Shown in pieces: positions 35,776 through 60,903 of a stretch of 64,000 bases of DNA. The notes under the pieces were generated by a model. It made no database searches and was not told the origin of the DNA. It saw nothing but the letters and a program-made list of their open reading frames with translations. A program made the translations under genes and the position numbers. This DNA comes from Caulobacteraceae bacterium (GTDB lineage Bacteria > Pseudomonadota > Alphaproteobacteria > Caulobacterales > Caulobacteraceae): NCBI GenBank assembly GCA_031291645.1, contig JARLIQ010000053.1, forward strand, positions 1 to 64,000. Direction: 5' to 3'. The first letter of the stretch is position 1; each line of letters opens with the position of its first letter.

Positions 35776-36656
35776 GCTTGGATCTCGCTCTGCAGCGCCG
35801 CAGCCAGGACGCCGGCCAGCGGCGCGCGGTTGGTGGGGTGGACAATGGAATCGGTGGAGACGATCGCGCGCACGCCGGCGGCCTTCATCCGCGCGCCGGC
35901 CTCGCGGCCGAACAGGGCGTGCACAACGCCGACGTCGATCGAGGCCGCGCCCGCCGCGTGCAGCCTCTCGGCGGCCGCGACCAGGGTGGCGCCGCTGGAG
36001 CAGATGTCGTCGACCAGCAGCACGTGACGGCCCCAGACCGACGTCAGATCACTGTGCGCCAGGCGCACCGTCTCGTCGCCCTTGCGGGTCTTGCTGAACA
36101 TCAGCGCCTCCCCGCCGAGCCGCTCGGCGATCCGGCCCGCCCAGGGGCCGGACTCCGCGTCCGGCCCGACCACCAGCGGGCGCTCCGGCCCGGCCAGCGC
36201 TTCGGCCAGCGGGATCGACGCGGAAAGGTCGTCCGCCTCGATCCCGCCGAAGGCCGCCGACAGGTCGCGGGTGCGATGCAGGTGGGCGTCCACCGTCACC
36301 ACCCGGTCGAAACACGCGCCCAGCAGGCCGCAGACCGCGTCGCGGCTGAGCGGTTCGCCAGGATGAAACACCGCGTCCTGGCGCAGGTAGCAGAGGTAGG
36401 GCGCGACCAGCACCAGGCGCCGCACGCCGGCCCGGCGCCAGGCGTCGGCGGCCAGCAGCAGGGCGATCAGCTTCTCGTTCGGATGGTCCAGCGAGCAGTA
36501 GGCGACGACCGTCCTGGCCGGCTGGACCACCGGCATAAGCTCGCCGTCCGGAAACCGGTGCAGGGCGATCGGTGCGAACGGCGCGCCAAGTTCGGCGGCG
36601 AGGGCGCGGCCCCGCGGCGCCTGATCCTCGAACGCCTGGACGGTGAGCGGGATCAC
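35772..36656 (-). CDS. Divergent ribose-phosphate pyrophosphokinase (Prs-like)
   Basis: A 294-residue Prs relative, shorter than the usual 310-320. Motifs: FPDGE (35-39), PYLCYLRQD (86-94), VTVDAHLH (120-127), GPDAES (164-169) and the PRPP loop [11 protein letters not shown] (215-225). Prs makes PRPP from ribose 5-phosphate and ATP, and most key positions are conserved, so catalysis is plausible. The changed flexible loop ([12 protein letters not shown]) and the partner gene suggest a specialised role. Both gene junctions are ATGA overlaps, showing a tight operon with the phosphorylase and the beta-CASP protein. Confidence 0.85.
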
Positions 36657-38143
36657 GCGCCGACGACCTTGTAGCCCGGGTCCTCGTCCGCGGCCTCACG
36701 GGCGAAGCCGAAGTCGTGCGGGTCGACGCCGTAGATCCGGTAGAGCGGCTCGCCCGCCCGCACCGGCTCACCCTTGCGCTTGAACAGGTCGAGGCCGGCG
36801 CCGACGTCGGTCGGCGCGCCCGCCAGCCGCGCCACGCTGCGGATGCGCTCGCAGTCGACGTCCTGGACCCAGCCGTCCAGCCGGGCCACCACGTCATAGG
36901 TCAAAGATCCCAGTTCGGACTTGCAGGGCGGCGGACCCTGGGCCTCGATGATCTGGTCCATCTTCCGGGCCGCCGCTCCGCTTTCGAGCAGTTCGCGGGC
37001 CCGCGCGGCGCCCTGCCCGCCGCGAAGGGCCGGATCGAACTCCAGCAGGCGGCCGGCGAGCATGATCGACTTTTCCCTCAGGTCGACCGGCGCATCGGGC
37101 GCGTTCTCGAGCACGGCGCGCACGTCGCGGGCCTCCAGGGCCGGACCGACCCCGCGCCCGATCGGCTGGCCGCCGTCGCTGATCACGATCTCCATGGTCA
37201 GCCCCAGCCGGCTGCCGACGAACTCGAACAGCTTGCGCAGACGCAGCGCCTCGTTGGTGTTGCGGACCTTGGCCGACGGGCCGAGCGGCAGGTCGATCAC
37301 CAGGTGGGTCGAGCCCGCGGCCGCCTTCTTCGACAGGATGGAAGCGACCATCTGCTCGGCCGTGTCGACGCCCAGCGGCCGTTCCACCGAGATCAGCACG
37401 TCGTCGGCCGGCGACAGGTCAACCTTGCCGCCCCAGACGATGCATGCGCCGCAGCGGTCGACCACTGCGCGCATCTCGTCTTCGTTGAGCTCCACCCGGG
37501 CCATCACCTCCATGGTGTCGGCGGTTCCCGCGGGCGAGGTGATGGCGCGCGAGGAGGTCTTGGGGAACAGCAGCCCGTGGGCCGCGACGATCGGGGCGAC
37601 GACCAGCGAGGTCCGGTTGCCCGGGATGCCGCCGATGCAGTGCTTGTCGACCACCAGCGGCCGGTCCCAGCGCAGCCGCGAGCCCGAAGCGATCATCGCC
37701 TGGGTCATCGCCAGGGTCTCGTCCGCGGTCATGAAGCTGGCGCACGAGATCAGGAAGGCGGCCACCTCCATGTCCGAATAGGCGTGGGTGACCAGGTCGT
37801 CGACGATCGCGGCCAGCGCCTTCTCGTCCAGGGTCGCGCCATTGACCTTCCTGCGCACCCAATCCAGGCTTTCAGGCGGCCGCGCCGGGGCGATATCGAC
37901 GTCGGCGCCGGCGGCTGCGCCCAGGCGGCGGAACAGCGGCATGGTCAGGCCGGCCTCGTCGGGCCCGACCAACTCGTCGGATTCGGCGATGACGATGTTG
38001 GCGAACAGCACGCGGCCGCCGGCGCGGACCTCGACCTTGCGCGAGCCGCTGATCCGCTCCGGCCGGAGCGCCGAACACCGCCGCGACAGCACCAGCACGT
38101 TCTCCCGCAGCGTATCGACCGGCAGCGGCTTGACCTTGAGCAT
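36653..38143 (-). CDS. Archaeal-type AMP (NMP) phosphorylase / thymidine phosphorylase family
   Basis: A 496-residue member of the DeoA superfamily of the long archaeal type. An extra N-terminal domain (about residues 1-85) precedes the pyrimidine-phosphorylase fold. Phosphate- and ribose-binding motifs read [10 protein letters not shown] (167-176) and [19 protein letters not shown] (195-213); the GGxPGN version is that of archaeal AMP phosphorylase and not of bacterial thymidine phosphorylase (KHSTGGVGDK). It should release the base from a nucleoside monophosphate, giving ribose 1,5-bisphosphate. First gene of the coupled three-gene operon. Confidence 0.85.
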
Positions 38144-38270: not shown

Positions 38271-38930
38271 TCAGAAGCGGTGGCCGACGCCGAGCGACAG
38301 AATCCAAGGATCGAGGTGGACGTTGCTATAGAGATAGCCAGAGCCGGTATCGACCTTGGCCTTGGTCGTGACGAACACCTTCTTGACGTCGGCGTTCAGG
38401 GTCCAGCCCGACGAGACCGGCGCGTCGAGGCCGGCCTGCAAGGCCCAGCCCACGGCGTCCGACAGGTGGGTCGAGAACCCGCTCTTGTTGGAGCCCGAGA
38501 AGAAGATCATGGCGTTGACGCCCGCCCCGACATAGGGGCTGACCGGCGCGTGGGTCAGCGGCCGGTACTGCAGGGTGATGACCGGCGGCAGCACCCAGGT
38601 GTCGTAGACGGGAAGGCTCACGCCCGCGCCCTCGGCCTTGATGTGGTGGTCGGTGACCCCGAGGATCGCCTCGGCCGAGATGTGGTCGGTCAGAAAGTAG
38701 GTGATGCCCAGCGTCGGCATGACTGACGATCCGACGTTGACGTGCAGGCCGCTCGGAGCGCCCGCGCCATTGGTGATGGCGTTCGAGGCGTTGGAGAAGA
38801 CGTCGGTGACCCGGCCGGTGATTAGCCACGTCCCCTTGCTCAGGGGCGCTGTATCGTCGGCGTGGGCGTGAGCCGGGCCGACCAGGGAGAAGGCGGCGGC
38901 CGCGGCGGCGATCATGTACTTCGTTTTCAT
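38271..38930 (-). CDS. ompW: OmpW-family outer-membrane protein
   Basis: A 219-residue beta-barrel protein with a 25-residue signal peptide (ends HAHAD). The OmpW pattern is visible in TLGITYFLTDHISAEAILGVT, followed by LPPVITLQYRPL and the C-terminal SNVHLDPWILSLGVGHRF. OmpW is an 8-stranded outer-membrane channel for small hydrophobic molecules, and in several proteobacteria it is strongly induced by FNR-type regulators. An FNR/FixK-type box at 39020-39033 is 96 bases upstream. ATG 38930 follows GGGGAT; the open frame to 39047 is not needed. Confidence 0.9.
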   Translation of the reverse strand: MKTKYMIAAAAAAFSLVGPAHAHADDTAPLSKGTWLITGRVTDVFSNASNAITNGAGAPSGLHVNVGSSVMPTLGITYFLTDHISAEAILGVTDHHIKAEGAGVSLPVYDTWVLPPVITLQYRPLTHAPVSPYVGAGVNAMIFFSGSNKSGFSTHLSDAVGWALQAGLDAPVSSGWTLNADVKKVFVTTKAKVDTGSGYLYSNVHLDPWILSLGVGHRF

Positions 38931-39019: not shown

Positions 39020-39033
39020 GTTGATCTAAAGCA
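39020..39033. promoter_or_regulatory. FNR/FixK-type box upstream of ompW
   Basis: TTGATCTAAAGCAA matches TTGAT-N4-ATCAA in 9 of 10 positions; its centre lies 96 bases upstream of the ompW start. The gap between the ompW and cytochrome-porin genes (38931-39342) holds this site and the next one and no gene that I can support. Confidence 0.65.
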
Positions 39034-39266
39034 AGTCCTGCGATCAAAGACCCTACGTAGGAACCCGTATAGGCGGCTCACGGGTGTTCCGGAAAAATCG
39101 GCGATCAATCCCGCCATTTCCCCATGGTCATGACCACCTGATTACTTCAGCAACCTCTGGAATAAACTAAGCTTGAACGGCGGCAAGCTGAGCACAAGCG
39201 CCAGGATGGCCCCGAATCGATTCCGAAATCTGGCGATTTTACGCCGAGAAGGCCGAACTGCGTTCA

Positions 39267-39280
39267 TTGACGGAGGTCAA
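39267..39280. promoter_or_regulatory. FNR/FixK-type box upstream of the cytochrome-porin gene
   Basis: TTGACGGAGGTCAA is a perfect dyad (ATTGAC-GGAG-GTCAAT) of the FNR/FixK class, 8 of 10 against TTGAT-N4-ATCAA. Its centre is 70 bases before the start at 39343, suitable for an activator at about -41.5. Confidence 0.65.
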
Positions 39281-39342
39281 TGCCCATATCGAGGCGCTGT
39301 CGAAACTGCCGTCACAAGCAACGAAGCCCGAGGGGGGCTAAC

Positions 39343-40713
39343 ATGCGACATCTTCGGCTCGACAAGACGCTCTCCCATTTCATTGGCTTGGCGGCCGGCG
39401 CGGTCATGACGCTGGCCGCCGCCGCGCTCAGCGCGGGCCCCGCGCAGGCCGTGCCCGCCTTTGCGGTCCAGACAAGTCAGCCATGCCAGGCCTGCCACGT
39501 CGGCGGGTTCGGCCCGCAACTCACGCCGTTCGGGCGCGAGTTCAAGCTGCATGGCTACACCACCCGCGCCAACACCTGGAACGTGCCGCTCTCGGCGATG
39601 GCGGTGGCCTCCTACGTGCGCACCGCCAAGGACCAGAACCCGCCGCCCGCGCCGCACTTCTCACCGAACGACAACGTTGCGCTGGACCAGTTCAGCCTGT
39701 TCTTCGCCGGCGGCCTCGGCTCGCACCTCGGCGCCTTCATCCAGACCACCTATGACGGCATCGCCAAGGCCTGGAGTTGGGACAACCTCGATGTGCGCGC
39801 CACCACCACCGCCACGATCAAGGGCGCGGACGTTGTGCTGGGCGCAAGCGTCAACAATTCGCCGACCGTCGACGACGCCTGGAACACCCTGGCGGCGTGG
39901 GGCTATCCCTATACCGGTTCGGGCCTGGCGCCCTCGCCGTCAGCCTCGCCCCTGCTGTCGGGCGCCCTCGCCCAGACCAGCCTGGGGGTGACCGCCTACG
40001 CCTGGGTCAACTCCGAGTTCCTGATCGAGGGGGGCGCCTACGGCTCGCCGGGCGCGACCACCCTGACCCACCTCGGCGCCGACCCCACCTCGCCCGGCGA
40101 CATCAGCGGCCTGGCGCCCTACGGCCGGATCGCCGTCCAGAAGGCGGTAGGCCCCGGCACGGTCGAGATCGGCGCCTTCGGCATGCAGGCCAACATCCAT
40201 CCCGGCCTGGACCGCTCGACCGGCATGACCGACCGCTACAGCGACCTTGGCCTGGACGGTTCCTACATCAGGACCCTGCAGAACGGCGACGTCGTGACCA
40301 TCAACGCCCGCTACACGCACGAAACCCAGTCACTGAACGCGACCTGCGCGCTCGCCGGGCAGTCCTCCGGCTGCGCCAGCAACAGCCTGAATGACATCCG
40401 CGCCGACGCCTCCTATTACTGGCGCAACGAGATCGGCGGCACGATCGCGGTGTTCGACACGAGCGGCTCGGCCAACCCGACCCTCTACGCCGGCAACCGG
40501 ACCTTCAAGCCGGACAGCACCGGCCTGATGTTCCAGCTGGACGGCACGCCGTTCGGCGGCGGCTCACCCGTCGGCCCGAGGATCAATATGCGCATGGGCG
40601 TGCAGTACACGCTCTACACCGAGTTCAACGGAGCCGGGTCCAACTATGACGGGTTCGGCGCCAAGGCCTCCGACAACAATACGCTGAGGGTATTCACATG
40701 GTTCGCATTCTGA
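39343..40713 (+). CDS. Outer-membrane cytochrome-porin (monoheme, Cyc2-like layout)
   Basis: A 456-residue secreted protein. A signal peptide of about 36 residues (ends AGPAQA) is followed at once by one heme c site, CQACH (48-52), in the setting FAVQTSQPCQACHVGGFGPQL then TPFGREFKLHGYTT. The rest looks like alternating beta-strands with Gly/Asn turns (about 14-16), ending in an aromatic residue (VFTWFAF) as outer-membrane barrels do. This layout, a heme plug fused to a porin, is that of Cyc2-type cytochrome-porins. Direct homology to Cyc2 is inferred. RBS GAGGGGGG precedes ATG 39343. Confidence 0.75.
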   Translation: MRHLRLDKTLSHFIGLAAGAVMTLAAAALSAGPAQAVPAFAVQTSQPCQACHVGGFGPQLTPFGREFKLHGYTTRANTWNVPLSAMAVASYVRTAKDQNPPPAPHFSPNDNVALDQFSLFFAGGLGSHLGAFIQTTYDGIAKAWSWDNLDVRATTTATIKGADVVLGASVNNSPTVDDAWNTLAAWGYPYTGSGLAPSPSASPLLSGALAQTSLGVTAYAWVNSEFLIEGGAYGSPGATTLTHLGADPTSPGDISGLAPYGRIAVQKAVGPGTVEIGAFGMQANIHPGLDRSTGMTDRYSDLGLDGSYIRTLQNGDVVTINARYTHETQSLNATCALAGQSSGCASNSLNDIRADASYYWRNEIGGTIAVFDTSGSANPTLYAGNRTFKPDSTGLMFQLDGTPFGGGSPVGPRINMRMGVQYTLYTEFNGAGSNYDGFGAKASDNNTLRVFTWFAF

Positions 40714-41093
40714 CCTGCCGGGGTCTTGTCCCGGCCGCCGCCGTGCTAGCGGCCGGGCTGCTCGCCGCCCTGCCGGCCGCGGCCGGCGACGCCGCCCACG
40801 GCAAGAGCGTGTTCGCGGCCCAGTGCGCCATGTGCCACACCGCGACGCACGGCGGCCCGACCATCCTCGGCCCGAACCTCTATGGGGTCGTGGGCCGCAA
40901 GGCGGGATCGACGCCAGGCTTCGCCTATTCGCCTGGCATGAAGGCCGCGGGCTTCACCTGGACGGACGACCAGCTCCACGCCTACCTGCCTTCGCCCCGC
41001 GCCATGGTGCCCGGCACCAAGATGAGCTACGCGGGGCTGAAGAACCCGTCCCAGCTGGACGACCTGGTCTCCTATCTCGACACCCTGAAATAG
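40698..41093 (+). CDS. Periplasmic class I cytochrome c
   Basis: A 131-residue c-type cytochrome: signal peptide (about 1-29), CAMCH (43-47) heme site, LGPNLYGVVGRKAG as in cytochrome c2, and PGTKMSYAGL supplying the axial methionine. Its start lies inside the end of the cytochrome-porin gene (16-base overlap), so the two are co-translated. It would carry electrons in the periplasm between the outer-membrane cytochrome and inner-membrane partners such as the cbb3 oxidase. Confidence 0.92.
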   Translation: MVRILTCRGLVPAAAVLAAGLLAALPAAAGDAAHGKSVFAAQCAMCHTATHGGPTILGPNLYGVVGRKAGSTPGFAYSPGMKAAGFTWTDDQLHAYLPSPRAMVPGTKMSYAGLKNPSQLDDLVSYLDTLK

Positions 41094-41134
41094 GCCGTCT
41101 CGCCCTCCCAGCCCCCTGGGAGGACGCCGGCTGC

Positions 41135-42595
41135 TCAGGCATAGTCGAACAGGGCCATGAACCCGAAGTCCATGTGCAGCTGCTGGTGGCAGTGGAACAG
41201 CGTCCGGCCAGGATTGTCGGCCAGGGAGTCCACTTCCGCCGTCTGATAGCCGCCGAGCATCACCACATCCTTGATCACGCCGGCGACGGGCTCGCCGGCG
41301 ATCCGGGTCAGCTCGAAGCTGTGCCGGTGCAGGTGCACCGGATGGATGTCGTCGCTGGCGTTGCGCATGCGCAGCCGATAGCGCCGTCCCTGGCGCAGGC
41401 GGAACATCGGCTCCATGCGCTCGTCGGAGAAGGCGACGCCGTTGATCGTCCAGCGGTTGAAGCCGCCCAGGGCGGCGTTGTCCTTGGCGAAGGTCAGATC
41501 GAAGGTCTCGTCGGGTTCGCTGGCCCGCGCGCCGGGGCGGCCGAACCACCGGTAGTCCCAGTGCGACCTGGCCGGCGCGACCCACCGGGGCGGCCCTTTG
41601 CGGCCGGCGTACTCCACCACGACGCCCATGCCGCGGCGCCGATCGTCGTCGGCCAGGTCGCCCAACACCCAGACGCCGGGATTGCTCATCTCGACGATGG
41701 CCGAAACCCGCTCGGCGGTTCCCAGCCACAGCACCGGGACGCTGGCCTGCACCGGCGTCGGGTTGCCGTCCAGCGCCACCACCTGGAAATGGTGGCCCGG
41801 CAGGGCGAGGCTGCGGATCTCCGTCGCGCTGCCGTTCACGACGTGGAACAGAACACGTTCGCCGGCGCGGACCCGGATCGGCTCGCCGCGCCCCAGCATC
41901 TTGCCGTTGATCGAGAACAGGTCGTAGCCGACCTCGAAGCCATGCGGCGCGCCTGACGCCAGCGAGGCCTTCATCGCCGCCTCCCCCCTCGCCTTGAGCG
42001 CCGCGACCTCGACGGCGGGCGAGAGGAAATCCATGTCCATGTCGCCGCCGCGGCTCAGCGTCGGCTCAAACTCCTTCAGGACCAGGAACACCTCGCGGTC
42101 GTAGCGGCCCGGCTCACGCCGGGGTTCGATATAGACCGCGCCGACCTGGCCGCTGTACTGGCCCGCCGCCAGGTCGGCGCCCGCGTTCAGGTGACTGTGG
42201 TAGAAGCGCAGGCCCGCCCGCCCGGGTGTGAAGGCGATGCGCCGCGAGCCGTGGGCGGGGATGAAGGGCGTGCCTTCCTCGGCCGAGCCGTCCACGTCGA
42301 CCGGCACGGTCTGACCGTGCCAATGCAGTTGCTCAGGCGTGTCGGTGTCGTTGTGGATGTCGACCACCACCCGCCGCCCCTCGGTCATCCGCAGCAGCGG
42401 CCCTGGGAACTGGCCGTTGTAGGTGGTGGTGGCGACGATCTTGTCGGGGGCCAGTTCCACCAGCCCCGCGCCGATCCGGATGGTGTGGTCCGCGGGCCCG
42501 CCCGGCGCGGGCTCCGCCGCGACGCGCCGCGGCAGCGCCCCGGCGATGGCGGCGGCCGCGCCGAACTGCAAGAGATGTCTGCGATCGAAGGCCAT
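41135..42595 (-). CDS. Tat-exported multicopper oxidase (laccase-like)
   Basis: A 486-residue three-domain multicopper oxidase. It carries a Tat-type signal (DRRHLLQFGAAAA). Copper ligands: HWHG (91-94), YHSHLNAG (132-139), HPVHLH (418-423) and HCHQQLH (468-474), so both type 1 and trinuclear sites are complete. The axial type 1 position appears to be Phe (F479), with a Met one residue later, which would favour a high potential. Possible substrates are Cu(I), Fe(II), phenols or the neighbouring cytochromes. It is last gene of the run on the minus strand that starts at the hemerythrin gene. Confidence 0.9.
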   Translation of the reverse strand: MAFDRRHLLQFGAAAAIAGALPRRVAAEPAPGGPADHTIRIGAGLVELAPDKIVATTTYNGQFPGPLLRMTEGRRVVVDIHNDTDTPEQLHWHGQTVPVDVDGSAEEGTPFIPAHGSRRIAFTPGRAGLRFYHSHLNAGADLAAGQYSGQVGAVYIEPRREPGRYDREVFLVLKEFEPTLSRGGDMDMDFLSPAVEVAALKARGEAAMKASLASGAPHGFEVGYDLFSINGKMLGRGEPIRVRAGERVLFHVVNGSATEIRSLALPGHHFQVVALDGNPTPVQASVPVLWLGTAERVSAIVEMSNPGVWVLGDLADDDRRRGMGVVVEYAGRKGPPRWVAPARSHWDYRWFGRPGARASEPDETFDLTFAKDNAALGGFNRWTINGVAFSDERMEPMFRLRQGRRYRLRMRNASDDIHPVHLHRHSFELTRIAGEPVAGVIKDVVMLGGYQTAEVDSLADNPGRTLFHCHQQLHMDFGFMALFDYA

Positions 42596-42653
42596 GGCGC
42601 GCCTCTGGCGGGAGCGGTCGCCGGACCGCGTGACGCCCCTGCCCCCGCCGCGG

Positions 42654-43001
42654 CTACTTGCCCAGCAACAGGTCCATGAACGGCGGGAAGGTCAGCAGCA
42701 GTCCCGCGATCAACATCATGAAGGAAGACGCGTTCACGCGCATCAGGTTCACGTCCCGCCTGGCCCAACGTCTGGAAAGCCAGAACCAGACCGCGAGCCA
42801 GACCACGATCGCCGCCAGGGTGACGCCGGACAGCGGGCCGGTCGGAATCCAAAGGCTGAACCCCTTCCGGACAAGCGGAGACGCATCGCCCGCGAACGCG
42901 CAGGCGCCCAGGGCGAGCGAGCCGACGCCCGCCGCCAGGATGGCCGCGGCCCCTGGCCCGTTGGGAAGCGCCTCAGGCGCCGATGGTGGCGGAGCGGTCA
43001 T
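42654..43001 (-). CDS. Small membrane protein of the low-oxygen cluster
   Basis: A 115-residue protein, not recognised. Three hydrophobic segments are visible: about 17-37 (AAAILAAGVGSLALGACAFAG), 57-75 (GVTLAAIVVWLAVWFWLS) and 93-113 (FMMLIAGLLLTFPPFMDLLLGK), with a basic loop RRWARRD between the last two, which is probably cytoplasmic. It begins one base after the stop of the 43003-43566 gene and clearly belongs to the same operon as the multicopper oxidase. Confidence 0.7.
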   Translation of the reverse strand: MTAPPPSAPEALPNGPGAAAILAAGVGSLALGACAFAGDASPLVRKGFSLWIPTGPLSGVTLAAIVVWLAVWFWLSRRWARRDVNLMRVNASSFMMLIAGLLLTFPPFMDLLLGK

Positions 43002-43002
43002 C

Positions 43003-43566
43003 TCAGCGCCCCCGCATCAGGACGATCTCGGCGCCGCCCCTGACCGGCGCATACTTGTTCAGGAAGGCGCCGAACACGCCCGCCACGGCCGTGGCGAGGA
43101 AGGCGGCGGCGGTGAAGCCCAGCACGGCGTTACGCATCTGGCGTTGGAGCGCGAGCTGGGGGCCGTACTTGATGAACACATAGGCGACCATGGTCATGGC
43201 GATCGGCGTGAACCAGGCGATGTGTTCCTTCCATTCCATGCCGAGTTCGTGCCAGCCGGCGGTCAGCGGGCTGGAGAGCAGCAGCCGCTGGGGATAGGCC
43301 GAGAGGTCCTTCGCGCCGGCCGGCGGGGCCGCGCGATACCAGGGATAGATGATGTAGGAGCCCGACAGCACCGTCAGCCATGCGAGAACCGCCATACTGA
43401 TGAGGTAGAAGCGGAACAGGCCGAGCGCCGACGACGGCGAGGGCCAGCGCGCGCCGGCGGCGGTGGCGTAGATCACGCCAAGCGCGCCCGAGAAGGCGAG
43501 CATGAACAGCACGCCGAAACCCATCCCGTGCAGCACCGTCATCAGGTCCCGGAAGGTGAGTTCCAA
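43003..43566 (-). CDS. Membrane protein with conserved-looking histidines
   Basis: A 187-residue inner-membrane protein with four segments (about 12-33, 50-72, 115-134, 147-167). Three histidines lie in or at membrane segments: H13 (VLHGMGFG), H106 (GWHELG) and H115 (WKEHIAWF). This arrangement would suit a b-type heme or copper site, but I recognise no family. It is preceded by the hemerythrin gene (54-base gap) and followed one base later by another small membrane protein, so it is probably the membrane anchor or quinol-side partner of this cluster. Confidence 0.7.
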   Translation of the reverse strand: MELTFRDLMTVLHGMGFGVLFMLAFSGALGVIYATAAGARWPSPSSALGLFRFYLISMAVLAWLTVLSGSYIIYPWYRAAPPAGAKDLSAYPQRLLLSSPLTAGWHELGMEWKEHIAWFTPIAMTMVAYVFIKYGPQLALQRQMRNAVLGFTAAAFLATAVAGVFGAFLNKYAPVRGGAEIVLMRGR

Positions 43567-43620
43567 GGCTCGAGCCTCCTTGGCCGGATTTCGGCGTGGC
43601 TTTGTCGCCGCAGCAGACCG

Positions 43621-44178
43621 CTATTGGCCGACGGCGGGCAGCTTCGCGTGCAGGACCTCGCCGATCACCTCGACGGTCGGTTCCAGCAATTCGAGGTCGT
43701 TCAGCGAGTCGGTCGCCGCAGCCCGCGCGAATTCGACGGCGTCATGGTCGTTCGCGCGCTCGCCAGCCGCCAGGAGCGCGTTCAGCACCGCCGTCATCTC
43801 GGTGTGCTCCTGGAATATCTGCTCGCGCTCGGCCTTGACCCGGTCGGTCATGGCCATCGCCCAGGCCATGTCGGGCGTCACCTTGCCGTCGGCCAGGTCG
43901 GGAAGCAGGGTCAGCGGCGGCAGGATGTACGCCTCCTCGCGGGCGGCGTGCCGCTCGAACAACGCCATCGCCTCGCGGGCCCGCGCCCCGACCGGTCCGG
44001 GCCGCTGGGCCAGGACGGAAAGATGGGCCAGCGTCTCCTGGTGCTCGAGCACCAGCGACTGGGGTATCTCGCGCCGGCCCTCGGCGGCCGACGCCGGCTG
44101 GGCGGCGGCGACGAAACCCACGCAAGCCACGCCAGCGGCCGCCAGCAATGCTAACACCGTCGATGACGTTGGGCGCAT
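43621..44178 (-). CDS. Secreted hemerythrin-like protein
   Basis: A 185-residue protein with a signal peptide (about 1-32, ends AQPASAA) and an all-helical domain. Likely iron ligands: H46 and H52 (LEHQETLAHL), H77 with E81/E82 (ERHAAREEA), H125 (QEHTEM) and H145. Hemerythrin folds carry a di-iron centre for oxygen or metal binding, here in the periplasm, where it could deliver or sense oxygen. A very strong AGGAGG ribosome binding site is present. First gene of the minus-strand unit, with an FNR/FixK-type box at 44270-44283. Confidence 0.78.
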   Translation of the reverse strand: MRPTSSTVLALLAAAGVACVGFVAAAQPASAAEGRREIPQSLVLEHQETLAHLSVLAQRPGPVGARAREAMALFERHAAREEAYILPPLTLLPDLADGKVTPDMAWAMAMTDRVKAEREQIFQEHTEMTAVLNALLAAGERANDHDAVEFARAAATDSLNDLELLEPTVEVIGEVLHAKLPAVGQ

Positions 44179-44269
44179 GTCCCATTCCTCCTGCCGAACG
44201 CCTGGCGGGCGGATGGTCCACCGCGCCACACGTCCTGCCGAAGGCTCCCACGAACGCGCCCGGACCGAG

Positions 44270-44283
44270 TTGACCTGGATCAA
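44270..44283. promoter_or_regulatory. FNR/FixK-type box upstream of the hemerythrin-oxidase operon
   Basis: TTGACCTGGATCAA matches TTGAT-N4-ATCAA in 9 of 10 positions. The centre is 98 bases before the hemerythrin start. It should make the hemerythrin, membrane proteins and multicopper oxidase respond to low oxygen. Confidence 0.7.
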
Positions 44284-44361: not shown

Positions 44362-44387
44362 GGGGGTCCCTACTTCGGGGGTCCCTA
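44362..44387. repeat. Pair of 11-base direct repeats at the end of cheE
   Basis: GGGGGTCCCTA occurs at 44362-44372 and again at 44377-44387; the second copy includes the cheE stop codon. It lies between the end of the chemotaxis operon and the box of the hemerythrin operon. No role is clear. Confidence 0.5.
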
Positions 44388-44873
44388 GGCCGGCAGGGCG
44401 TCGGGATCCCCGACCCGTTTGCGGGTGACCTGGTTCAGGCCCTTGATCACATCCAGCCGCTCGCGCTCGCCGATCGCCTGGCCGACCGTGCGCAACATGC
44501 GCAGCGCGTCGAGGTGCAGGTCGATCGCCACCCAGTCCCAGGCCCGCTGCGCCTCGCAGAGGGCGGTGAGTTGACACAGCGCCCGGGCCGCCTTGTCGAG
44601 GTCGGCGCCGGTGAAGAAGATCGAGGCGTCGATGATCCTGGACGACAGGGTGTAGAGGTCGCCGAACGGCTCGTCGGCCCGGCCCGCCGCGCCGGCGCCA
44701 TAACGCCGCTCGATCTCGGCGATGGCGCTGTCGATGGTCTCGAGGCAGGGCCCCCGCATGGTCTCCAGCGCCGCGTCCGCCCGCCGCAGGGCGTCGGCTA
44801 CGGTCATGCCGCCGGGGCGAAAGGCGTGGGTCGACAGTCGCGTCTCGACCTTAAACTTCCGGGCTTCGCTCAT
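44385..44873 (-). CDS. cheE: Chemotaxis protein CheE
   Basis: A 162-residue helical protein, the last gene of the operon. The context, directly after a CheY paralog in the Caulobacter order, identifies it as CheE. The sequence has no enzyme motif; it has a conserved-looking region LYTLSSRIIDASIFFTGADLDKAARALCQL. Its function is unclear even in Caulobacter. The start overlaps the stop of the previous gene (ATGA, 44870-44873). Confidence 0.82.
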   Translation of the reverse strand: MSEARKFKVETRLSTHAFRPGGMTVADALRRADAALETMRGPCLETIDSAIAEIERRYGAGAAGRADEPFGDLYTLSSRIIDASIFFTGADLDKAARALCQLTALCEAQRAWDWVAIDLHLDALRMLRTVGQAIGERERLDVIKGLNQVTRKRVGDPDALPA

Positions 44874-45478
44874 AGGTTGACTTTGGCCGGCTTCATGAAG
44901 GCGTTGATCTCGTCTTGGCTAAGGTTGGGACCGCCTTCGTCGCGCAGCTTGGTGGCCCGGTCGTCGGCCCTGCGCCCGGTCACCCCGGGCGGCGGACCCA
45001 ATCGTTTGAACCGCCGGTCCGGTCCCTTGTAGGACTCGCTGTCGATGAACAGCCGGTTCTCGCGCGCAATCCAGAAGATGCGCTGCAAAAGGATTTTTGG
45101 CGTGATCGGCTTGGCGATGACGAAGTGGGCGCCGCAGTCGCGCGCCCGCTGCACCACGGCGGCGCTGGTGTCGCCGGTGACCATGACGGCCGGCGCATAG
45201 CGGTTCGGCTCGTTGGCCACGTGGCGCAGCCACCTGAGGAAGTCGAAGCCGTCCTCGCCGGAGAACCGCACGTTGGTGATCACGAAGTCGATGTCCATGC
45301 GGCTGGCGATGTCCTTGGCCTCGCGCACCGACTGGCACTTGTGCATGCCGCGCACGCCGAAGCCGGAAACCACCTGCCCGATGATGTCGAGCGACTGCTG
45401 ATTGTCGTCGATCAGCAGGAACGAGATCCGTTCCAGATTGATCCGCTCGCCGCTGATCAGAGCGCCGAGGTTGCTCAT
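44870..45478 (-). CDS. cheYIII: CheY-like receiver protein (CheYIII position) without the phospho-acceptor Asp
   Basis: A 202-residue protein: an N-terminal receiver domain (about 15-145) and a basic C-terminal tail with GPDRRFKRLG and TGRRADDR. The acidic pair is present (LLIDDNQQ) and the lysine too (VIAKPITP), but the acceptor aspartate of the usual TDxxMPxxDG is replaced by Asn (N69 in ITNVRFSGEDG). It therefore cannot be phosphorylated in the normal way. The Arg-rich tail recalls c-di-GMP-binding CheY-like (Cle) proteins, an inference. Coupled to cheE by ATGA. Confidence 0.82.
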   Translation of the reverse strand: MSNLGALISGERINLERISFLLIDDNQQSLDIIGQVVSGFGVRGMHKCQSVREAKDIASRMDIDFVITNVRFSGEDGFDFLRWLRHVANEPNRYAPAVMVTGDTSAAVVQRARDCGAHFVIAKPITPKILLQRIFWIARENRLFIDSESYKGPDRRFKRLGPPPGVTGRRADDRATKLRDEGGPNLSQDEINAFMKPAKVNL

Positions 45479-45488
45479 CGTCCCGGCC

Positions 45489-45857
45489 TCACCAGAACTC
45501 GGCTTCGCCGCTGGGAGCGGACGATATCCGCCCCCCGCTGAGCCGAGCGCGCAGGTCCGAAAGCTTCAGTCCGTCGAACACCTGGGCGGACGCCTCGCCG
45601 AGATCGTCGCCCGCCGACAACCGCGCGAGCAGCCCCGCCACGTCGGCCAGCCGCTGGGTCAGCTCGTCCAGTCGCTGCAGCCGTTCCGCCAGATCGCGGC
45701 GAACGTCGTGGCCGAGCGCTTCACCCAGCGCGTCCTGGCAGTCCTCGGCGATCGCGACGGCTTCGGCCAGTTCGTCGGCCAGCCGCGCGGCAAGGTCCCC
45801 GACCGCGACCGCCTCCCGCTGATGACCGACCTCGATCGAGATGACCTGGCTGTTCAT
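45489..45857 (-). CDS. cheU: Chemotaxis protein CheU
   Basis: A 122-residue, largely helical and Ala/Leu/Asp-rich protein in the place of Caulobacter cheU, between cheD and cheYIII. No motif is recognised and its function is not known. The sequence is acidic and coiled-coil-like from residue 20 to 90. Identification rests on position. Confidence 0.7.
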   Translation of the reverse strand: MNSQVISIEVGHQREAVAVGDLAARLADELAEAVAIAEDCQDALGEALGHDVRRDLAERLQRLDELTQRLADVAGLLARLSAGDDLGEASAQVFDGLKLSDLRARLSGGRISSAPSGEAEFW

Positions 45858-45865
45858 CGCTCCCC

Positions 45866-46399
45866 CTAGAACAGTTCGACGCCGCCGGCCGACGGCGCGG
45901 TCGGCCGTACGGGCGGACGCATGACGTCCGGCGCCTGCTCGACCGCCCGCTGACGCGCGCGGCCCGATGCCGGCCAGAACTCGATCCGCCGTGCGCTCAG
46001 CCCCCCCAGGCTGCCACCCGTGACCGCGATGCCTTCCAATTCGAGGAACCGCCGGGCGAAGGCGGCGTTGGCCGCGCCGATGTCCCCCAGGGTGTCGAAC
46101 AGCCGCGCCCCGCCGAACAGCTTGGCCTGCAGCCGCTCGCGGCGCGCGCCCAGCTTCATCAGGTCGTTGATCAGCATTTCCATGGCGTAGGCGCCGTAGC
46201 GCATCGACTCATCGCCGACCGCGGAGCCGCCGGTGTCCTCCGGCAGCAGGAAGTGGTTCATCCCGCCGACCCCGGCCTGCGGATCGTGCATGCAGGCCGC
46301 CACGCACGAGCCCAGCACCGTGGTCAGGATCGCGTCCTGATCGGTCGAGACCGCGTGTTCGCCCTGGATGACGTGCAGCTTGCGGGGCCCAAAATTCAT
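45866..46399 (-). CDS. cheD: Chemoreceptor glutamine deamidase CheD
   Basis: A 177-residue CheD. Catalytic Cys and His are at C32 (VLGSCVAACMHD) and H49 (GGMNHFLLP), followed by the typical RYGAYAMEMLINDLMKLGA segment. CheD deamidates glutamines of methyl-accepting receptors and can bind CheC-type phosphatases. The last 35 residues are a Pro-rich tail. The start overlaps the stop of cheYII by 4 bases. Confidence 0.92.
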   Translation of the reverse strand: MNFGPRKLHVIQGEHAVSTDQDAILTTVLGSCVAACMHDPQAGVGGMNHFLLPEDTGGSAVGDESMRYGAYAMEMLINDLMKLGARRERLQAKLFGGARLFDTLGDIGAANAAFARRFLELEGIAVTGGSLGGLSARRIEFWPASGRARQRAVEQAPDVMRPPVRPTAPSAGGVELF

Positions 46400-46785
46400 G
46401 TAAGCGCCCCGAACACTTCCTCGATCTTGGCCTTCAGCGTGGCGTTAGTGAACGGTTTGACCAGATAATTGTTGACGCCGTATTGCGCCGCCTTCTGAAC
46501 AAGTTCGCGGTCGGCGCGCCCGGTCAGCATGATGAAGGCGGTGTTGCGGATCGGCTGGTGCGACCGGATGGCGCGCAGCAATCCCAGACCGTCAAGCTTG
46601 GGCATGTTGAAGTCCGAGATCACCAGGTGTGTGGGCCGGGCCAGCAGCGCCCGCAGCCCGTCCTCACCGTCGGCGGCTTCACGGACGTTGACGATGCCCA
46701 GCTGCTGCAGCCCGTTGCGGACGAGCGAACGGATGGTCTGCTGGTCATCGACGATCAGGGTTTGGAGAGAGGAGGCGGCGGGCAT
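46396..46785 (-). CDS. cheYII: Response regulator CheY (CheYII position)
   Basis: A 129-residue single-domain receiver with all key residues: acidic pair in LIVDDQQTI, acceptor D58 (VISDFNMPKLDG), Thr in FIMLTGRAD and Lys in NYLVKPF. It would bind the flagellar switch when phosphorylated by CheA, or act as a phosphate sink. It lies 3 bases after cheB. Confidence 0.92.
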   Translation of the reverse strand: MPAASSLQTLIVDDQQTIRSLVRNGLQQLGIVNVREAADGEDGLRALLARPTHLVISDFNMPKLDGLGLLRAIRSHQPIRNTAFIMLTGRADRELVQKAAQYGVNNYLVKPFTNATLKAKIEEVFGALT

Positions 46786-46788
46786 GGC

Positions 46789-49159: not shown

Positions 49160-49163
49160 CGGG

Positions 49164-51368: not shown

Positions 51369-51373
51369 CGGGA

Positions 51374-55477: not shown

Positions 55478-55759
55478 TCAGCCGCGACGACGAGCCCGTG
55501 CGCCGATGCGGACCGGAGCGGCCACCGGGCGGCCCGCCTCGCCGGCGGCGACGAGGCCCAGGCCGACACCGGCCATGCCGAGCGCGGCGTAGCAGGCCGC
55601 GCAATGCGGCCCCAGCAAAGCGTGGCCGCAGATCGGGCCGTAGGCGCTGGCCGCCAGGATCGGCCGCATCAGCATGGCGTACCAGCCGACGCCGCCGGCG
55701 ACCATCGCCAGCCCCGCCGCGCCGAGACCATTCGCCGAAAGGAATTTCGCGATGCGCAT
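55478..55759 (-). CDS. Small membrane protein divergent from the cbb3 operon
   Basis: A 93-residue protein with two membrane segments (about 10-30 and 54-74) and a Cys/His-rich turn between them: [21 protein letters not shown]. CxxC plus nearby histidines could bind metal, heme or form a disulfide. It is divergent from ccoN and the FixK-type box at 55845-55858 lies between them, 92 bases upstream of this start, so it may be co-regulated with the oxidase. ATG 55759 has GAGGCG at the right distance; 55771 does not. No family recognised. Confidence 0.6.
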
Positions 55760-55844
55760 GACGCGCCTCATAAGCTTAACGCCACGCCGGATATGGGCGT
55801 CGCCGATCCATGCGGCAAGGTGCCCATCGGGCCTGCCCAACGCC

Positions 55845-55858
55845 TTGACCTAAATCAA
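55845..55858. promoter_or_regulatory. FixK/FNR-type box of the cbb3 oxidase operon
   Basis: TTGACCTAAATCAA, 9 of 10 against TTGAT-N4-ATCAA. A class II site centred at -41.5 would put transcription near 55893, so the translation start must be downstream of that, in favour of ATG 55916 rather than 55868 for ccoN. Confidence 0.75.
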
Positions 55859-55915
55859 GGCGACTTCATGGCCAGCCCTGCAAGTCAGCCCCAACGATTA
55901 GTCGGGCTGAATCTC

Positions 55916-57580
55916 ATGGTCACAATCGAATCCAAGCCGCCCACCGCGAGGTCCGGTGAGGCGGTCTATTTCCTGATCGCGACAGTGGCCCTCGCCCTGG
56001 TGGCGGCGGCGGCCACGGCGGCGTCCAAGGACCCGCTGTTCCAGTTCCAGGGCTGGATCTTCACCATCGCCTTCACCTTGGGCTCCTTCGCCCTGGCGGC
56101 GGGGATCTCCTCGGGCTCGTTCAACAGTCCGCAGGACCGCTACTCGGACGGGGTCATCAAGGCCGGGGTCATCGCGACCATGTTCTGGGGGGCGGCCGGC
56201 ATGCTGGTCGGCTGCATCATCGCCGCCCAGCTCTCCTGGCCGAGGATCTTCTACTTCCCCGACTTCGGGTTCCTGAACTTCGGCCGCCTGCGGCCGCTGC
56301 ACACCTCGGCGGTGATCTTCGCCTTCGGCGGCAACGCCCTGATCGCCACCTCGTTCTGGGTCGTCCAGCGCACCTGCCGGGCGCGCCTCTTCGGCGGCAT
56401 CGCGCCCTGGTTCGTCTTCTGGGGCTACCAGCTGTTCATCGTGCTGGCCGGCCTCGGCTACCTGGTGGGCATCACCCAGGGCCAGGAGTACGCCGAGCCG
56501 GAATGGGCCACCGACCTGTGGCTGGCCATCGTCTGGGTCGCCTATCTGCTGGTCTTCCTGGGCACGATCTGGAAGCGCAAGGAACCCCACATCTACGTGG
56601 CGAACTGGTTCTACCTCGCCTTCATCGTGACCATCGCCATCCTGCACATCGTCAACAACCTGGCCCTGCCGGTCAGCTTCCTGAACCACCGCAGCTACGA
56701 GGTGTGGGCCGGCGTCCAGAGCGCCCTGGTCCAGTGGTGGTACGGCCACAACGCGGTCGGCTTCTTCCTGACAGCCGGCTTCCTGGGCATGATGTACTAC
56801 TTCATCCCCAAGCGCGCCGAACGGCCGATCTACAGCTATCGGCTGAGCATCGTGCACTTCTGGGCCCTGATCTTCATCTACATCTGGGCCGGGCCGCACC
56901 ACCTGCACTACACCGCCCTGCCGCAATGGGCCCAGACGCTGGGCATGACCTTCTCGATCATGCTGTGGATGCCGTCCTGGGGCGGGATGATCAACGGCCT
57001 GATGACGCTGTCGGGCGCCTGGGACAAGCTGCGCACCGATCCGGTGATCCGGATGCTGGTCGTCTCCCTGGCCTTCTACGGCATGTCGACCTTCGAGGGA
57101 CCGGTGATGTCGATCCGGGCGGTCAACGCCCTGTCGCACTACACCGACTGGACCATCGGCCACGTGCATTCCGGCGCGCTCGGCTGGGTCGGCTTCGTCA
57201 CCTTCGGCTCGGTCTACTGCATGGTCCCCTGGCTGTGGAAGAAGGACCGGCTGTATTCGAACACCCTGGTCGAGTGGCACTTCTGGATCGCGACCACCGG
57301 CATCCTGCTCTACATCAGCGCGATGTGGGTCTCCGGGATCATGGAAGGCCTGATGTGGCGCGAATACACGCCGCAAGGCTTCCTGGCCTACAGCTTCGTC
57401 GAGGTCGTCGCCGCCCGTCACGTCGAGTTCGTGATCCGGCTGGGCGGCGGGCTGATGTACCTCGCGGGCGCCCTCATCATGATCTACAACCTCTGGCGCA
57501 CGGTCCAGCTTCCCAGCTCCGAAAGCGCCGCCCATCCGGCCAATGCGACGCCCGCGCCGCTGGCCCTGGCCGCGGAGTAA
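55916..57580 (+). CDS. ccoN: cbb3-type cytochrome c oxidase subunit I
   Basis: A 554-residue heme-copper oxidase subunit with 12 or more membrane segments. Heme and copper ligand histidines are visible in [43 protein letters not shown] and [14 protein letters not shown]. It is the catalytic subunit that reduces oxygen at very low concentrations and pumps protons in the inner membrane. ATG 55916 is preferred to 55868 because the FixK-type box would place the transcript start between them. First gene of ccoNOQP. Confidence 0.96.
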
Positions 57581-57586
57581 GGGCCC

Positions 57587-58339
57587 ATGGCCACTTCATC
57601 CCCACTCTTTTCCAAGCACGCCACGCTCGAGCGGCACTCGCTGCTGCTGCTGATCGGGATCATCATCGTCGTCTCGATCGGCGGCATCATCGAGATCGCC
57701 CCGCTCTTCTACCTGGAGAGCACGATCGAGAAGGTGGGCGGCATGCGCCCCTACACCCCGCTCGAACTCGAGGGTCGCGACATCTACATCCGCGAGGGCT
57801 GCTACCTCTGCCATTCGCAGATGATCCGCCCCCTGAAGGACGAGGTCGAGCGCTACGGCCACTACAGCCTGGCCGCCGAGAGCATGTACGACCACCCCTT
57901 CCAATGGGGTTCGGAACGGCAGGGCCCGGACCTGGCCCGCGTGGGAGGCAAGTATTCCGACGCCTGGCACCGCGACCACCTGATCAACCCGCGCTCGGTG
58001 GTGCCGGAATCGATCATGCCGCCCTACGCCTTCCTGGCGAAGAAGGACCTGGACTACCGGGACATCGCCGAAAAGCTGAAGACGCAGAAGGCGGTGGGCG
58101 TGCCCTACACCGACGCCGAGATCGCCTCGGCCGCGGATGACCTGAAGGCCCAGGCCGACCCGTCCGCCAGCGACGCGACGCTCAAGGCTCACTACGGCGC
58201 CAAAGCCAACGCCCGCGATTACGACGGCGACCCGGACCGGATCACCGAAATGGACGCCCTGATCGCCTACCTGCAGATGCTCGGCACCCTGGTGGACTTC
58301 TCCACCTATCACGCCGACGCCCCAGCCAACCAACGGTGA
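57587..58339 (+). CDS. ccoO: cbb3 oxidase subunit II (monoheme cytochrome c)
   Basis: A 250-residue membrane-anchored cytochrome c: one N-terminal membrane helix (about 18-40), then CYLCHSQMI with heme site C72-H76, and the typical [23 protein letters not shown]. It passes electrons from ccoP to ccoN in the periplasm. Six bases after ccoN. Confidence 0.96.
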
Positions 58340-58343
58340 GGTC

Positions 58344-58499
58344 ATGAGCTACGAAACCGTCTCCCGTTTGGCCCAGCAAGGCGGGACCGTCTACTTCGTG
58401 ATCCTTTTCCTCGGCGGCCTCGCCTACGCGTTCTGGCCGAAGAAGAAGGACGAGTTCCAGCGCGCCGCCCGTCTGCCGCTCGACGAGGAGGAGGGCTGA
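58344..58499 (+). CDS. ccoQ: cbb3 oxidase subunit CcoQ
   Basis: A 51-residue protein, MSYETVSRLAQQGGTVYFVI..., with one membrane helix (TVYFVILFLGGLAYAFWP) and a charged tail (KKKDEFQRAARLPLDEEEG). CcoQ stabilises the oxidase complex. It lies between ccoO and ccoP, 4 and 3 bases from them, as expected. Confidence 0.92.
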   Translation: MSYETVSRLAQQGGTVYFVILFLGGLAYAFWPKKKDEFQRAARLPLDEEEG

Positions 58500-58502
58500 G
58501 AT

Positions 58503-59372
58503 ATGAGCCACGAAAAGGAAACCGACGCCCACTCCGGCATGGAGACCACCGGTCACGAGTGGGATGGGATCAAGGAACTCGACACGCCGCTGCCCCGCTG
58601 GTGGCTGTGGATCTTCTACGGCTGCATCGCCTTCGCGGCCGTCTACTGGATCCTGATGCCGTCCTGGCCGGGGATCACCGGCTACAGCCACGGACTGCTG
58701 CACGACTCCGCGCGGGCGAACGTGGTCAAGGACCTGGCGGGCCTGCAGGCCCAGCGGGCGACCGAGGCCAACCGGCTGAGCACCGCCTCGCTGGAGACGA
58801 TCGAGAAGGATCCGCAGCTGCAGGCCTACGCCCTGGCGGTGGGCCAGTCGATCTTCGGCGACAACTGCGCAACCTGCCACGGCTCCGGTGGGACGGGCGG
58901 CAAGGGCTATCCGAACCTGCGCGACGACGTCTGGCTGTGGGGCGGCTCGCTGGAGGACATCCAGCGCACCATCACCTACGGCGTGCGGGCGGACGATCCC
59001 AACACCCGCTTCTCCCAGATGCCGTCCTTCGGCCGCGACAAGATCCTGCAGCCCGACCAGGTCTCTGACCTGACCGAGTACGTGGTGGCCCTGTCGCACC
59101 GCAAGGCCGACGCCGCCGCGGTCGCCCGCGCCGCCCCGGTGTTCCAGGCGAACTGCGCCGTCTGCCACGGTCCTCAAGGCCTGGGCAACCAAGCCATGGG
59201 CGCGCCCAACCTGACGGATTCGGACTGGCTCTACGGCGCCGACCGCGCCTCGATCCACGACCAGATCTGGAACGGCCACGGCGGGGTCATGCCGGCCTGG
59301 GGCCACCGGTTCGACGCCAACACTATCAAGGCGCTGACCGTCTACATCCACGCCAACGCCGGCGGCAAATAG
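58503..59372 (+). CDS. ccoP: cbb3 oxidase subunit III (diheme cytochrome c)
   Basis: A 289-residue protein with one membrane helix (about 34-53, WWLWIFYGCIAFAAVYWILM) and two c-type heme domains: CATCH (122-126) and CAVCH (218-222). It receives electrons from soluble cytochrome c and passes them to ccoO. Full length. Confidence 0.96.
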   Translation: MSHEKETDAHSGMETTGHEWDGIKELDTPLPRWWLWIFYGCIAFAAVYWILMPSWPGITGYSHGLLHDSARANVVKDLAGLQAQRATEANRLSTASLETIEKDPQLQAYALAVGQSIFGDNCATCHGSGGTGGKGYPNLRDDVWLWGGSLEDIQRTITYGVRADDPNTRFSQMPSFGRDKILQPDQVSDLTEYVVALSHRKADAAAVARAAPVFQANCAVCHGPQGLGNQAMGAPNLTDSDWLYGADRASIHDQIWNGHGGVMPAWGHRFDANTIKALTVYIHANAGGK

Positions 59373-59397
59373 GCCCGGAGTTCAAGTAAAAACCGTC

Positions 59398-60903
59398 ATG
59401 GTCACCGTGATCGACACCAAGTCCGGACATTCGGACGGACCGCGTAAGGGACCGGTCTCGGTCGCCGCCTCGACCCGCGCCAAGGGCGCGGGCGGGCCCA
59501 GCCTCTACAAGCCGCGCACGCCGATCTATCCCAAGCTGGTCCACGGCCGCTGGCGGATGGTGAAGTGGGCGCTGCTGGTGATGACGCTGGCGATCTACTA
59601 CGTCACGCCGTGGCTCCGGTGGCATCGGCCGGAGGGCCTGCCGCAGCAGGCCGTCCTGGTCGATTTCGCCGGCCGGCGGTTCTATTTCTTCGCCATCCAG
59701 CTGTGGCCGCAGGAGGTCTATTTCATCACCGGGCTGCTGGTGGCGGCGGCCTTGGCCCTATTTCTGGTCAGCGCCCTGTTCGGGCGGCTGTGGTGCGGCT
59801 ACGCCTGCCCGCAGACCGTCTGGACCGACCTCTACATCGTCGTCGAGCGTCTGTTCGAAGGCGACCGCAACGCGCGGATGAAGCTGGACGCCGCCCCACT
59901 GTCCTTCGACAAGGCATGGCGCAAGTCGGGCAAGCACCTGGTGTGGATCGCCATCGCGGTGGCGACCGGCGGCGCCTGGATCCTCTACTTCCAGGACGCG
60001 CCGACGCTGTGGAGGCAGTTCTGGGTCGGCCAGGCGCCGGTCACCGCCTACATCTCGGTGGCGGTCCTGACCTTCACCACCTATTCGCTGGCCGGGACCA
60101 TGCGCGAGCAGGTCTGCACCTACATGTGCCCCTGGCCCCGCATCCAGGGCGCGATGCTCGACGAGCATTCGCTTCAGATCACCTACCGCAACGACCGCGG
60201 CGAGCCGCGCGGACCGCACAAGAAGACCGAAGGCTGGGAAGGCCGCGGCGACTGCGTGGACTGCAACCAGTGCGTGGTCGTCTGCCCGATGGGGATCGAC
60301 ATCCGCGACGGGGCCCAGATCGAGTGCATCAACTGCGGGCTCTGCGCCGACGCGTGCGACGAAATCATGGTCCGCGTCGGCCGGCCCCAGGCGCTGATCT
60401 CCTACGACACCGACTCCGCGGTCGCCGACCGCGCGGCCGGACGCAAGCCGGTCTACAAGCTCGTCCGCGCCCGCACGATCTACTACGCCGCCGCCCTGGC
60501 GCTGGTCACCGGCCTGATGGTATGGGGCTTCGCGACCCGCAGCGCGGTGGTGTTCGACGTGCTGCGCGACCGCAATCCGACCTTCGTGCGGCTGCATGAC
60601 GGTTCGATCCGGGATGGCTACACCCTCAAGGTCGCCAACCGCAGCTTCGAGCGCCAGACCTACGTCATCACCCTGACCGGCCTGCCCGCCGACAGCCTGA
60701 AGGTTCCCGGCCAGGACGTCACCACCGGCGCGCTCACCCTGACGGTCCCGGCCAACGAGGTCGATTCCCTGCGCGTGCTCGTCGCCGCGCCCCCCGAAGC
60801 CATCACCGCCGCCAGCATGCCGGTGGTCTTCCACCTGCGCGCCGGCAAGACGGCGGCGGATGTCCCGTCGGTCTTCCTTTCTGGAGCTGCGAATCCGCAA
60901 TGA
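59398..60903 (+). CDS. ccoG: cbb3 oxidase assembly protein CcoG (4Fe-4S ferredoxin-type)
   Basis: A 501-residue membrane protein with about five segments and two ferredoxin-like cluster sites (CVDCNQCVVVCP and CINCGLCADACD), plus the RLWCGYACPQTVWTD motif. A C-terminal immunoglobulin-like domain follows. It is the FixG-type protein that reduces copper for the cbb3 oxidase. It lies 25 bases after ccoP and overlaps ccoH by 4. Confidence 0.95.
   Translation: MVTVIDTKSGHSDGPRKGPVSVAASTRAKGAGGPSLYKPRTPIYPKLVHGRWRMVKWALLVMTLAIYYVTPWLRWHRPEGLPQQAVLVDFAGRRFYFFAIQLWPQEVYFITGLLVAAALALFLVSALFGRLWCGYACPQTVWTDLYIVVERLFEGDRNARMKLDAAPLSFDKAWRKSGKHLVWIAIAVATGGAWILYFQDAPTLWRQFWVGQAPVTAYISVAVLTFTTYSLAGTMREQVCTYMCPWPRIQGAMLDEHSLQITYRNDRGEPRGPHKKTEGWEGRGDCVDCNQCVVVCPMGIDIRDGAQIECINCGLCADACDEIMVRVGRPQALISYDTDSAVADRAAGRKPVYKLVRARTIYYAAALALVTGLMVWGFATRSAVVFDVLRDRNPTFVRLHDGSIRDGYTLKVANRSFERQTYVITLTGLPADSLKVPGQDVTTGALTLTVPANEVDSLRVLVAAPPEAITAASMPVVFHLRAGKTAADVPSVFLSGAANPQ

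Follow-up and report, generated by a model that had tools for sequence, protein, structure and literature searches.

A divergent Cyc2-like cytochrome-porin fusion with exchangeable periplasmic carriers and low-oxygen boxes in Caulobacteraceae

Cyc2 is used to recognize iron oxidation by microbes, and what role its many distant homologues play has been asked by the authors who work on it. The same question is raised by a Caulobacteraceae contig (JARLIQ010000053.1), whose first 64,000 nucleotides, hereafter the window, form part of a 4.4 Mb genome that is 97% complete and contain on the forward strand (39343..40713) a gene for a 456-residue cyc2-like monoheme cytochrome-porin fusion. By sequence homology, the fusion protein belongs to a divergent subfamily of Cyc2 homologues. 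We consider it on balance probable that it acts as a microaerobically induced Cyc2-type conduit feeding periplasmic carriers and a cbb3 oxidase, a reading built on the fold, family, carrier pairing, box conservation and co-occurrence computed here. The reading frames, strands and coordinates that a first-pass annotation, made from the sequence letters, had given for all genes were borne out.

Fold and family of the fusion protein

The fusion protein has a signal peptide, a single CQACH (residues 48-52, DNA positions 39484-39498) and a C-terminal Phe. In the AlphaFold2 model, computed with 69 sequences (mean predicted local distance difference test, pLDDT, 90.1; predicted template modelling score, pTM, 0.86), a short helical N-terminal domain carrying the CQACH is followed from residue 83 onwards by 16 beta strands. 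The first-pass annotation had proposed a heme c site fused to an outer-membrane barrel and had named the absence of a barrel in a structure prediction as a refutation; the CQACH and the 16 predicted strands agree with its proposal. When the model was used as a Foldseek query, the best PDB matches were outer-membrane porins, including OprO (4rjw) and OprP (2o4v), which are the porins named for Cyc2 by Keffer et al. 2021 (PMC8406198). Sequence searches against Pfam, NCBIfam and PDB gave no match, and the family assignment therefore rests on the fold and on motif-exact relatives.

These relatives were obtained independently of the query, with a DNA pattern for P.FAR[QK]....C..CH...P.L applied to 398 genomes across the phylum, and 29 motif-exact Cyc2 proteins were recovered. 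A hidden Markov model (HMM) of the barrel alone, built from the window family, matched five of them (L183-L187) with E values of 1e-103 or better, and one of the five (L185) was 38% identical to the window protein over its full length. The remaining 24 had only the heme domain in common with the window family (E about 1e-9). The heme-domain HMM matched all 29, while the best unrelated protein reached only 0.009. Homology to Cyc2 of the KYGMSCNSCHTMFPKL type was accordingly confined to the heme domain, no barrel homology being detectable; distant Cyc2 groups are likewise reported to have only this domain in common (PMC5566968). The claim of a Cyc2-type fusion was thus upheld by homology in both domains to motif-exact proteins, and the window protein resembles Cyc2 of Acidithiobacillus, Mariprofundus and Leptospirillum (Cyt572) also in having one CXXCH on the N-terminal side, more than 365 residues, an OprO/OprP-like porin barrel of 16 strands and an adjacent gene for a periplasmic cytochrome c.

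Periplasmic carriers and low-oxygen boxes

The adjacent gene (40698..41093, forward strand) overlaps the cyc2-like gene and encodes a periplasmic class I cytochrome c of 131 residues (PF00034, 1.5e-11), with CAMCH at 43, a candidate ligand Met 109 in GTKM, a cytochrome c fold and PDB matches to cytochromes c down to 9e-33, as the first-pass annotation had read it. The same overlap recurs in about 26 relatives of the fusion. The relatives came from three sources: 149 family genomes, of which 33 were positive; a class sample, in which 10 of 289 were positive; and named genomes, which gave 80 loci. At least 66 of the 96 loci with flanks had a gene for a cytochrome c or a high-potential iron-sulfur protein (HiPIP) no more than 1.6 kb from the fusion gene, whereas only 2.3% of intervals drawn at random from these sequences did; these counts come from a scan based on open reading frames and are lower bounds, further cytochromes being found by tblastn. 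On a maximum-likelihood tree of the fusion relatives, the partner changed between cytochrome and HiPIP seven times by parsimony, with at least four changes forced by well-supported branches. The HiPIP of locus L046 matched PioC (6xyv, 2e-10), a protein of photoferrotrophs, a cupredoxin gene (PF00127, 2.4e-9) stood in place of both carriers in L072, and each of the motif-exact relatives L183-L187 adjoined a HiPIP-like or cytochrome c frame. Since these carriers replace each other repeatedly and have only redox chemistry in common, the fusion protein would give electrons to, or take them from, a periplasmic pool, and the exchange is the strongest evidence for such traffic; the electron-transfer pairing suggested at first pass is thereby sustained. 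In L071 (12092-13263), cytochrome c prime-like and cytochrome b561 genes occur together beside the cyc2-like/cytochrome pair, and the same two genes stand beside a multicopper oxidase in L169 (7906-9179).

Perfect FNR/FixK boxes (TTGAY-N4-RTCAA, TTGAYNNNNRTCAA) were found three times in the window, at 39267, 44270 and 55845, where 0.11 were expected. The first (TTGACGGAGGTCAA, 39267..39280) is centred 69.5 bp upstream of the cyc2-like ATG and the second (TTGACCTGGATCAA, 44270..44283) lies 98.5 bp upstream of the ATG of a hemerythrin-like gene, both as perfect matches at the two places noted in the first pass; the third, detected in the pattern scan of the window (55845-55858), lies near the start of ccoN. 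Among the fusion relatives, 19 of 101 had a perfect box upstream, compared with 1.2% of random segments (about 16-fold, in a set partly redundant between loci), and chance placement of the boxes was rejected on these two comparisons. A perfect box also preceded the hemerythrin-like gene in 5 of 11 relatives. In L062, L063 and L066 the boxes lie between divergent fusion and hemerythrin-like genes, and the region adjoins an anaerobic coproporphyrinogen oxidase-like (hemN-like) gene and a universal stress gene. As a separate observation, a conserved group of genes (hemN-like, universal stress and unknown ones) adjoins the cyc2-like gene in these three loci and resembles an FNR regulon island.

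The ccoN belongs to a cbb3 oxidase operon, ccoNO(Q)P plus ccoG (55604..60903, forward strand; PF00115, PF02433, PF14715/PF13442, PF11614), which is situated 15 kb from the cyc2-like gene and has its own FNR-type box. It is a candidate terminal oxidase, and the likely partner of the conduit because its regulation is common to both. Divergently from the cyc2-like gene, on the reverse strand (38271..38930), lies a gene for an OmpW-family outer-membrane protein (PF03922, 1.3e-49) that is possibly a member of the same regulon, the intergenic FNR-type box being common to the two genes. In Sphingopyxis, ompW is divergent from and upstream of ccoN and is anaerobically induced (PMC7713065), and pioABC of Rhodopseudomonas is controlled by FixK (PMC3050613).

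For the electron donor, the direction of flow, the final oxidase and the accessory roles, we infer the following course. The 16-strand barrel would sit in the outer membrane, plugged by the N-terminal monoheme domain. At the pore a small soluble electron donor, Fe(II) being the most likely, would be oxidized, and the electron would travel via the one heme to the cytochrome c (class I) of the overlapping gene and from there to an inner-membrane oxidase, most likely cbb3, with FNR/FixK tying expression to low oxygen. Of the low-oxygen pathway to cbb3 proposed in the first pass, the Cyc2 homologue, the carriers, the boxes and the nearby boxed cbb3 operon stood, while the whole gene set is less surely one path. 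No RuBisCO match was found in the 97% complete genome, so autotrophy is unlikely, autotrophic iron oxidation is disfavored, and supplementary energy or detoxification would be served instead.

Accessory genes and metal handling

Convergent with this pair, four genes on the reverse strand encode a secreted hemerythrin-like protein, two membrane proteins and a multicopper oxidase. The hemerythrin-like protein (185 residues, 43621..44178, with the start corrected to ATG 44178) scored 17.1 bits against PF01814, below the gathering cut-off of 25.3, whereas its relative L166 passed with 36.0 bits. In an alignment of 13 sequences, H46, HxxxE (77-81) and EH (124-125) were conserved, while the HxxxH pair and the helix-4 His were not, so that only part of the diiron ligands (five His, two carboxylates) is retained. 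The hemerythrin-like label of the first pass is thus weak for the window protein itself and firmer for its relative.

The Tat-type multicopper oxidase (486 residues, 41135..42595, with a Tat-like signal) has three cupredoxin domains (PF07732, PF00394, PF07731) and all copper-binding motifs, namely HWH, HSH, HPVHLH and HCHxxxH (HCHQQLHMDFGF), with ligands conserved in 10 aligned sequences and a PDB match to 6vow (3.8e-33). The usual type-1 axial position is occupied by Phe, which suggests a high-potential copper site. Of the two membrane proteins, TM187 (187 residues, 43003..43566, about four helices, start codon TTG) has exactly three His (13, 106 and 115, in LHGMGFG, AGWHELG and MEWKEH), as the first pass had counted, and they are invariant in seven aligned sequences. 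TM115 (115 residues, 42654..43001, about three transmembrane segments) always adjoins TM187 where found. Searches of Pfam and NCBIfam gave no family for TM115 and no significant one for TM187; a match of TM187 to GDT1 at 0.066 was taken as chance, and its single-sequence AlphaFold model was poor (pLDDT 55).

The hemerythrin-like, oxidase and TM187 genes were present in 10, 9 and 6 of the 149 family genomes and coincided with the fusion gene in 10 of 10, 8 of 9 and 6 of 6 cases, respectively (hypergeometric p 8e-8, 2e-5 and 8e-5). TM187 was found in 1 of the 398 phylum genomes, with no detectable relative in the 397 others, which are spread over the phylum. In L036, L037, L062 and L066 the set stays together while the gene order varies, which argues for selection. 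In genome G099 the accessory set and the cytochrome gene share a contig (locus L059) from which the fusion gene is absent, and in G075 and G089 TM187/TM115 are located elsewhere, beside cytochrome b561. The first pass had proposed conservation of the neighborhood as a check and had named as refuting a situation in which homologues always occur without the cytochrome and multicopper oxidase; both partners recur, and the expectation survives to that extent, while most relatives of the conduit lack the hemerythrin-like, oxidase and membrane-protein genes.

Outside the conduit context, the oxidase occurs beside chrA/PadR and ars genes, and TM187/TM115 beside PadR/chrA. Because the set occurs in such places, it is read as a recruited accessory rather than as proven links of a chain: in part of the lineage the hemerythrin-like protein, the oxidase and TM187/TM115 probably joined the conduit as helpers that would deal with oxygen and metal in the periplasm, for example by oxidizing Fe(II) or some other metal admitted by the porin. 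As an observation in its own right, the oxidase subfamily or TM187/TM115 stands beside a chrA-type chromate transporter gene, mostly with PadR and without cyc2, in L160, L162, L164, L170 and L171, on plasmids and chromosomes, and this combination is possibly a separate metal-resistance unit. A GDT1-family cation antiporter gene lies near the oxidase set in two genera (L036, 4938-5480; L170, 5366-6025), which hints at manganese or another divalent metal.

The same associations would suit an alternative in which metal detoxification is the function of the locus, the oxidase oxidizing a toxic metal of the periplasm, be it Fe(II), Cu(I), Mn(II) or some other, with the help of the hemerythrin-like and membrane proteins, and the Cyc2-like pair being a neighbor that removes reduced metal outside. 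This alternative is favored by the occurrence of the same oxidase subfamily (64-75% identity) by chrA/PadR and ars genes on Bradyrhizobium and Komagataeibacter plasmids, by the oxidase beside chrA in L170 and L171, by TM187/TM115 by PadR/chrA on a Burkholderia plasmid and by the antiporter near the set in L036 and L170. However, it leaves unexplained both the FNR boxes and the fact that the fusion is paired with a cytochrome, HiPIP or cupredoxin even where a locus has no oxidase gene, and we regard it as unlikely.

Weighing of the readings and known systems

Several results weigh against a microaerobic Cyc2-type conduit. The motif AXPXFAR[QK][TY] that precedes CXXCH in Cyc2 was not found in the window protein, which reads AVPAFAVQT (FAVQT for FAR[QK][TY], Arg replaced by Val), and RQT was kept in 9 of the 48 relatives matching a relaxed motif. 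Nor was PXL found 4 residues after CXXCH; a PQL is present two residues further from the heme, the gap being five residues rather than three in the window protein and in all 48 scored relatives. Perfect boxes precede only a fifth of the fusion relatives, the co-occurrence p-values ignore phylogeny and include one positive (G032) that is just a fragment of 38 residues where a contig ends, and accessory genes are also found apart from the conduit. The Caulobacteraceae/sphingomonad lineage is one without known iron oxidation, and to our knowledge none of the named isolates with relatives (Novosphingobium, Solimonas, Rhodanobacter, Nitrospirillum) is an iron oxidizer. Cyc2 isoforms have, moreover, also been linked to Fe(III) reduction, in acidithiobacilli (PMC10715153).

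The last point would fit an outward conduit, in which the Cyc2-like protein would, at low oxygen, release electrons from the quinone pool and the periplasmic cytochrome to acceptors such as Fe(III) or humics. An alternative respiration would also be compatible with FNR/FixK-type control, and single-heme carriers can work both ways. Yet in the window regulon the fusion is grouped with a multicopper oxidase and with cbb3, an oxidase that consumes oxygen, the biochemically tested Cyc2 proteins oxidize Fe(II) (PMC8406198), and the PioC-like partners stem from an inward path, all of which makes this direction of flow quite unlikely. Still more doubtful is a low-oxygen, non-autotrophic uptake of extracellular electrons in which the oxidase itself draws the Cyc2/cytochrome electrons in the periplasm, the hemerythrin-like protein supplies or buffers oxygen and TM187/TM115 form a new membrane redox complex, as a side-respiration parallel to cbb3. 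That two unrelated operons are adjacent by chance is very improbable: each half is found alone in other genomes, but co-occurrence and adjacency recur in different gene orders (L036, L037, L062, L063, L066), the hemerythrin-like gene is also present in L048, L051, L074 and L154, and FNR-type boxes serve both halves.

The proposed inward conduit with cbb3 as its probable end has counterparts in several known systems. PioABC of Rhodopseudomonas palustris TIE-1 likewise combines an outer-membrane conduit, a periplasmic one-electron carrier and FixK control, and relatives of the window conduit use PioC-like HiPIPs; PioAB, however, is a decaheme cytochrome in a porin, whereas the window has a monoheme fusion and a cytochrome c in place of the HiPIP. 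In the rus operon of Acidithiobacillus ferrooxidans (cyc2-cyc1-cup-cox-rus), Cyc2 is also followed by a periplasmic cytochrome c, with a copper protein and an oxidase nearby, while the window cluster has no rusticyanin or aa3 genes and includes the low-oxygen boxes as well as the multicopper oxidase and the hemerythrin-like and membrane proteins, partners that also set it apart from Cyc2 of the iron oxidizers. A Cyc2 with a HiPIP and three cytochromes c is already known from the alphaproteobacterium Bradyrhizobium, and the available text of that report (PMC5566968) makes no mention of a hemerythrin/oxidase/TM187/TM115 set. Cyc2 with a neighboring cytochrome is known as well (PMC10715153). The literature search returned no paper combining hemerythrin, Cyc2 and multicopper oxidase, and none on Cyc2 with Caulobacteraceae or Phenylobacterium; relative to the literature searched, the divergent subfamily with conserved low-oxygen boxes, the carrier exchange and the association with the hemerythrin-like/oxidase/TM187/TM115 genes appear to be new.

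The analysis thus connects a divergent Cyc2 subfamily of heterotrophic Caulobacteraceae and sphingomonads with regulation by low oxygen and with one-electron carriers that can replace each other, PioC-like HiPIPs included. If the conduit reading is true, ordinary bacteria of soil and freshwater, several of them cultured and hence testable, would possess the uptake of electrons from iron or other extracellular sources as a supplementary trait regulated by oxygen, and the hemerythrin-like, oxidase and TM187/TM115 genes would be concrete new genes to test.

Two further features of the neighborhood were recorded. Upstream in the window (34198-38143), genes for a Beta-CASP nuclease, a ribose-phosphate pyrophosphokinase and an archaeal-type thymidine/AMP phosphorylase stand in a row, in this genome without a RuBisCO match. 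Chemotaxis or chemoreceptor-like genes are neighbors of the cyc2-like gene both in the window (44385-51736) and in L035, L036, L069, L070 and L072, possibly pointing to redox or energy taxis.

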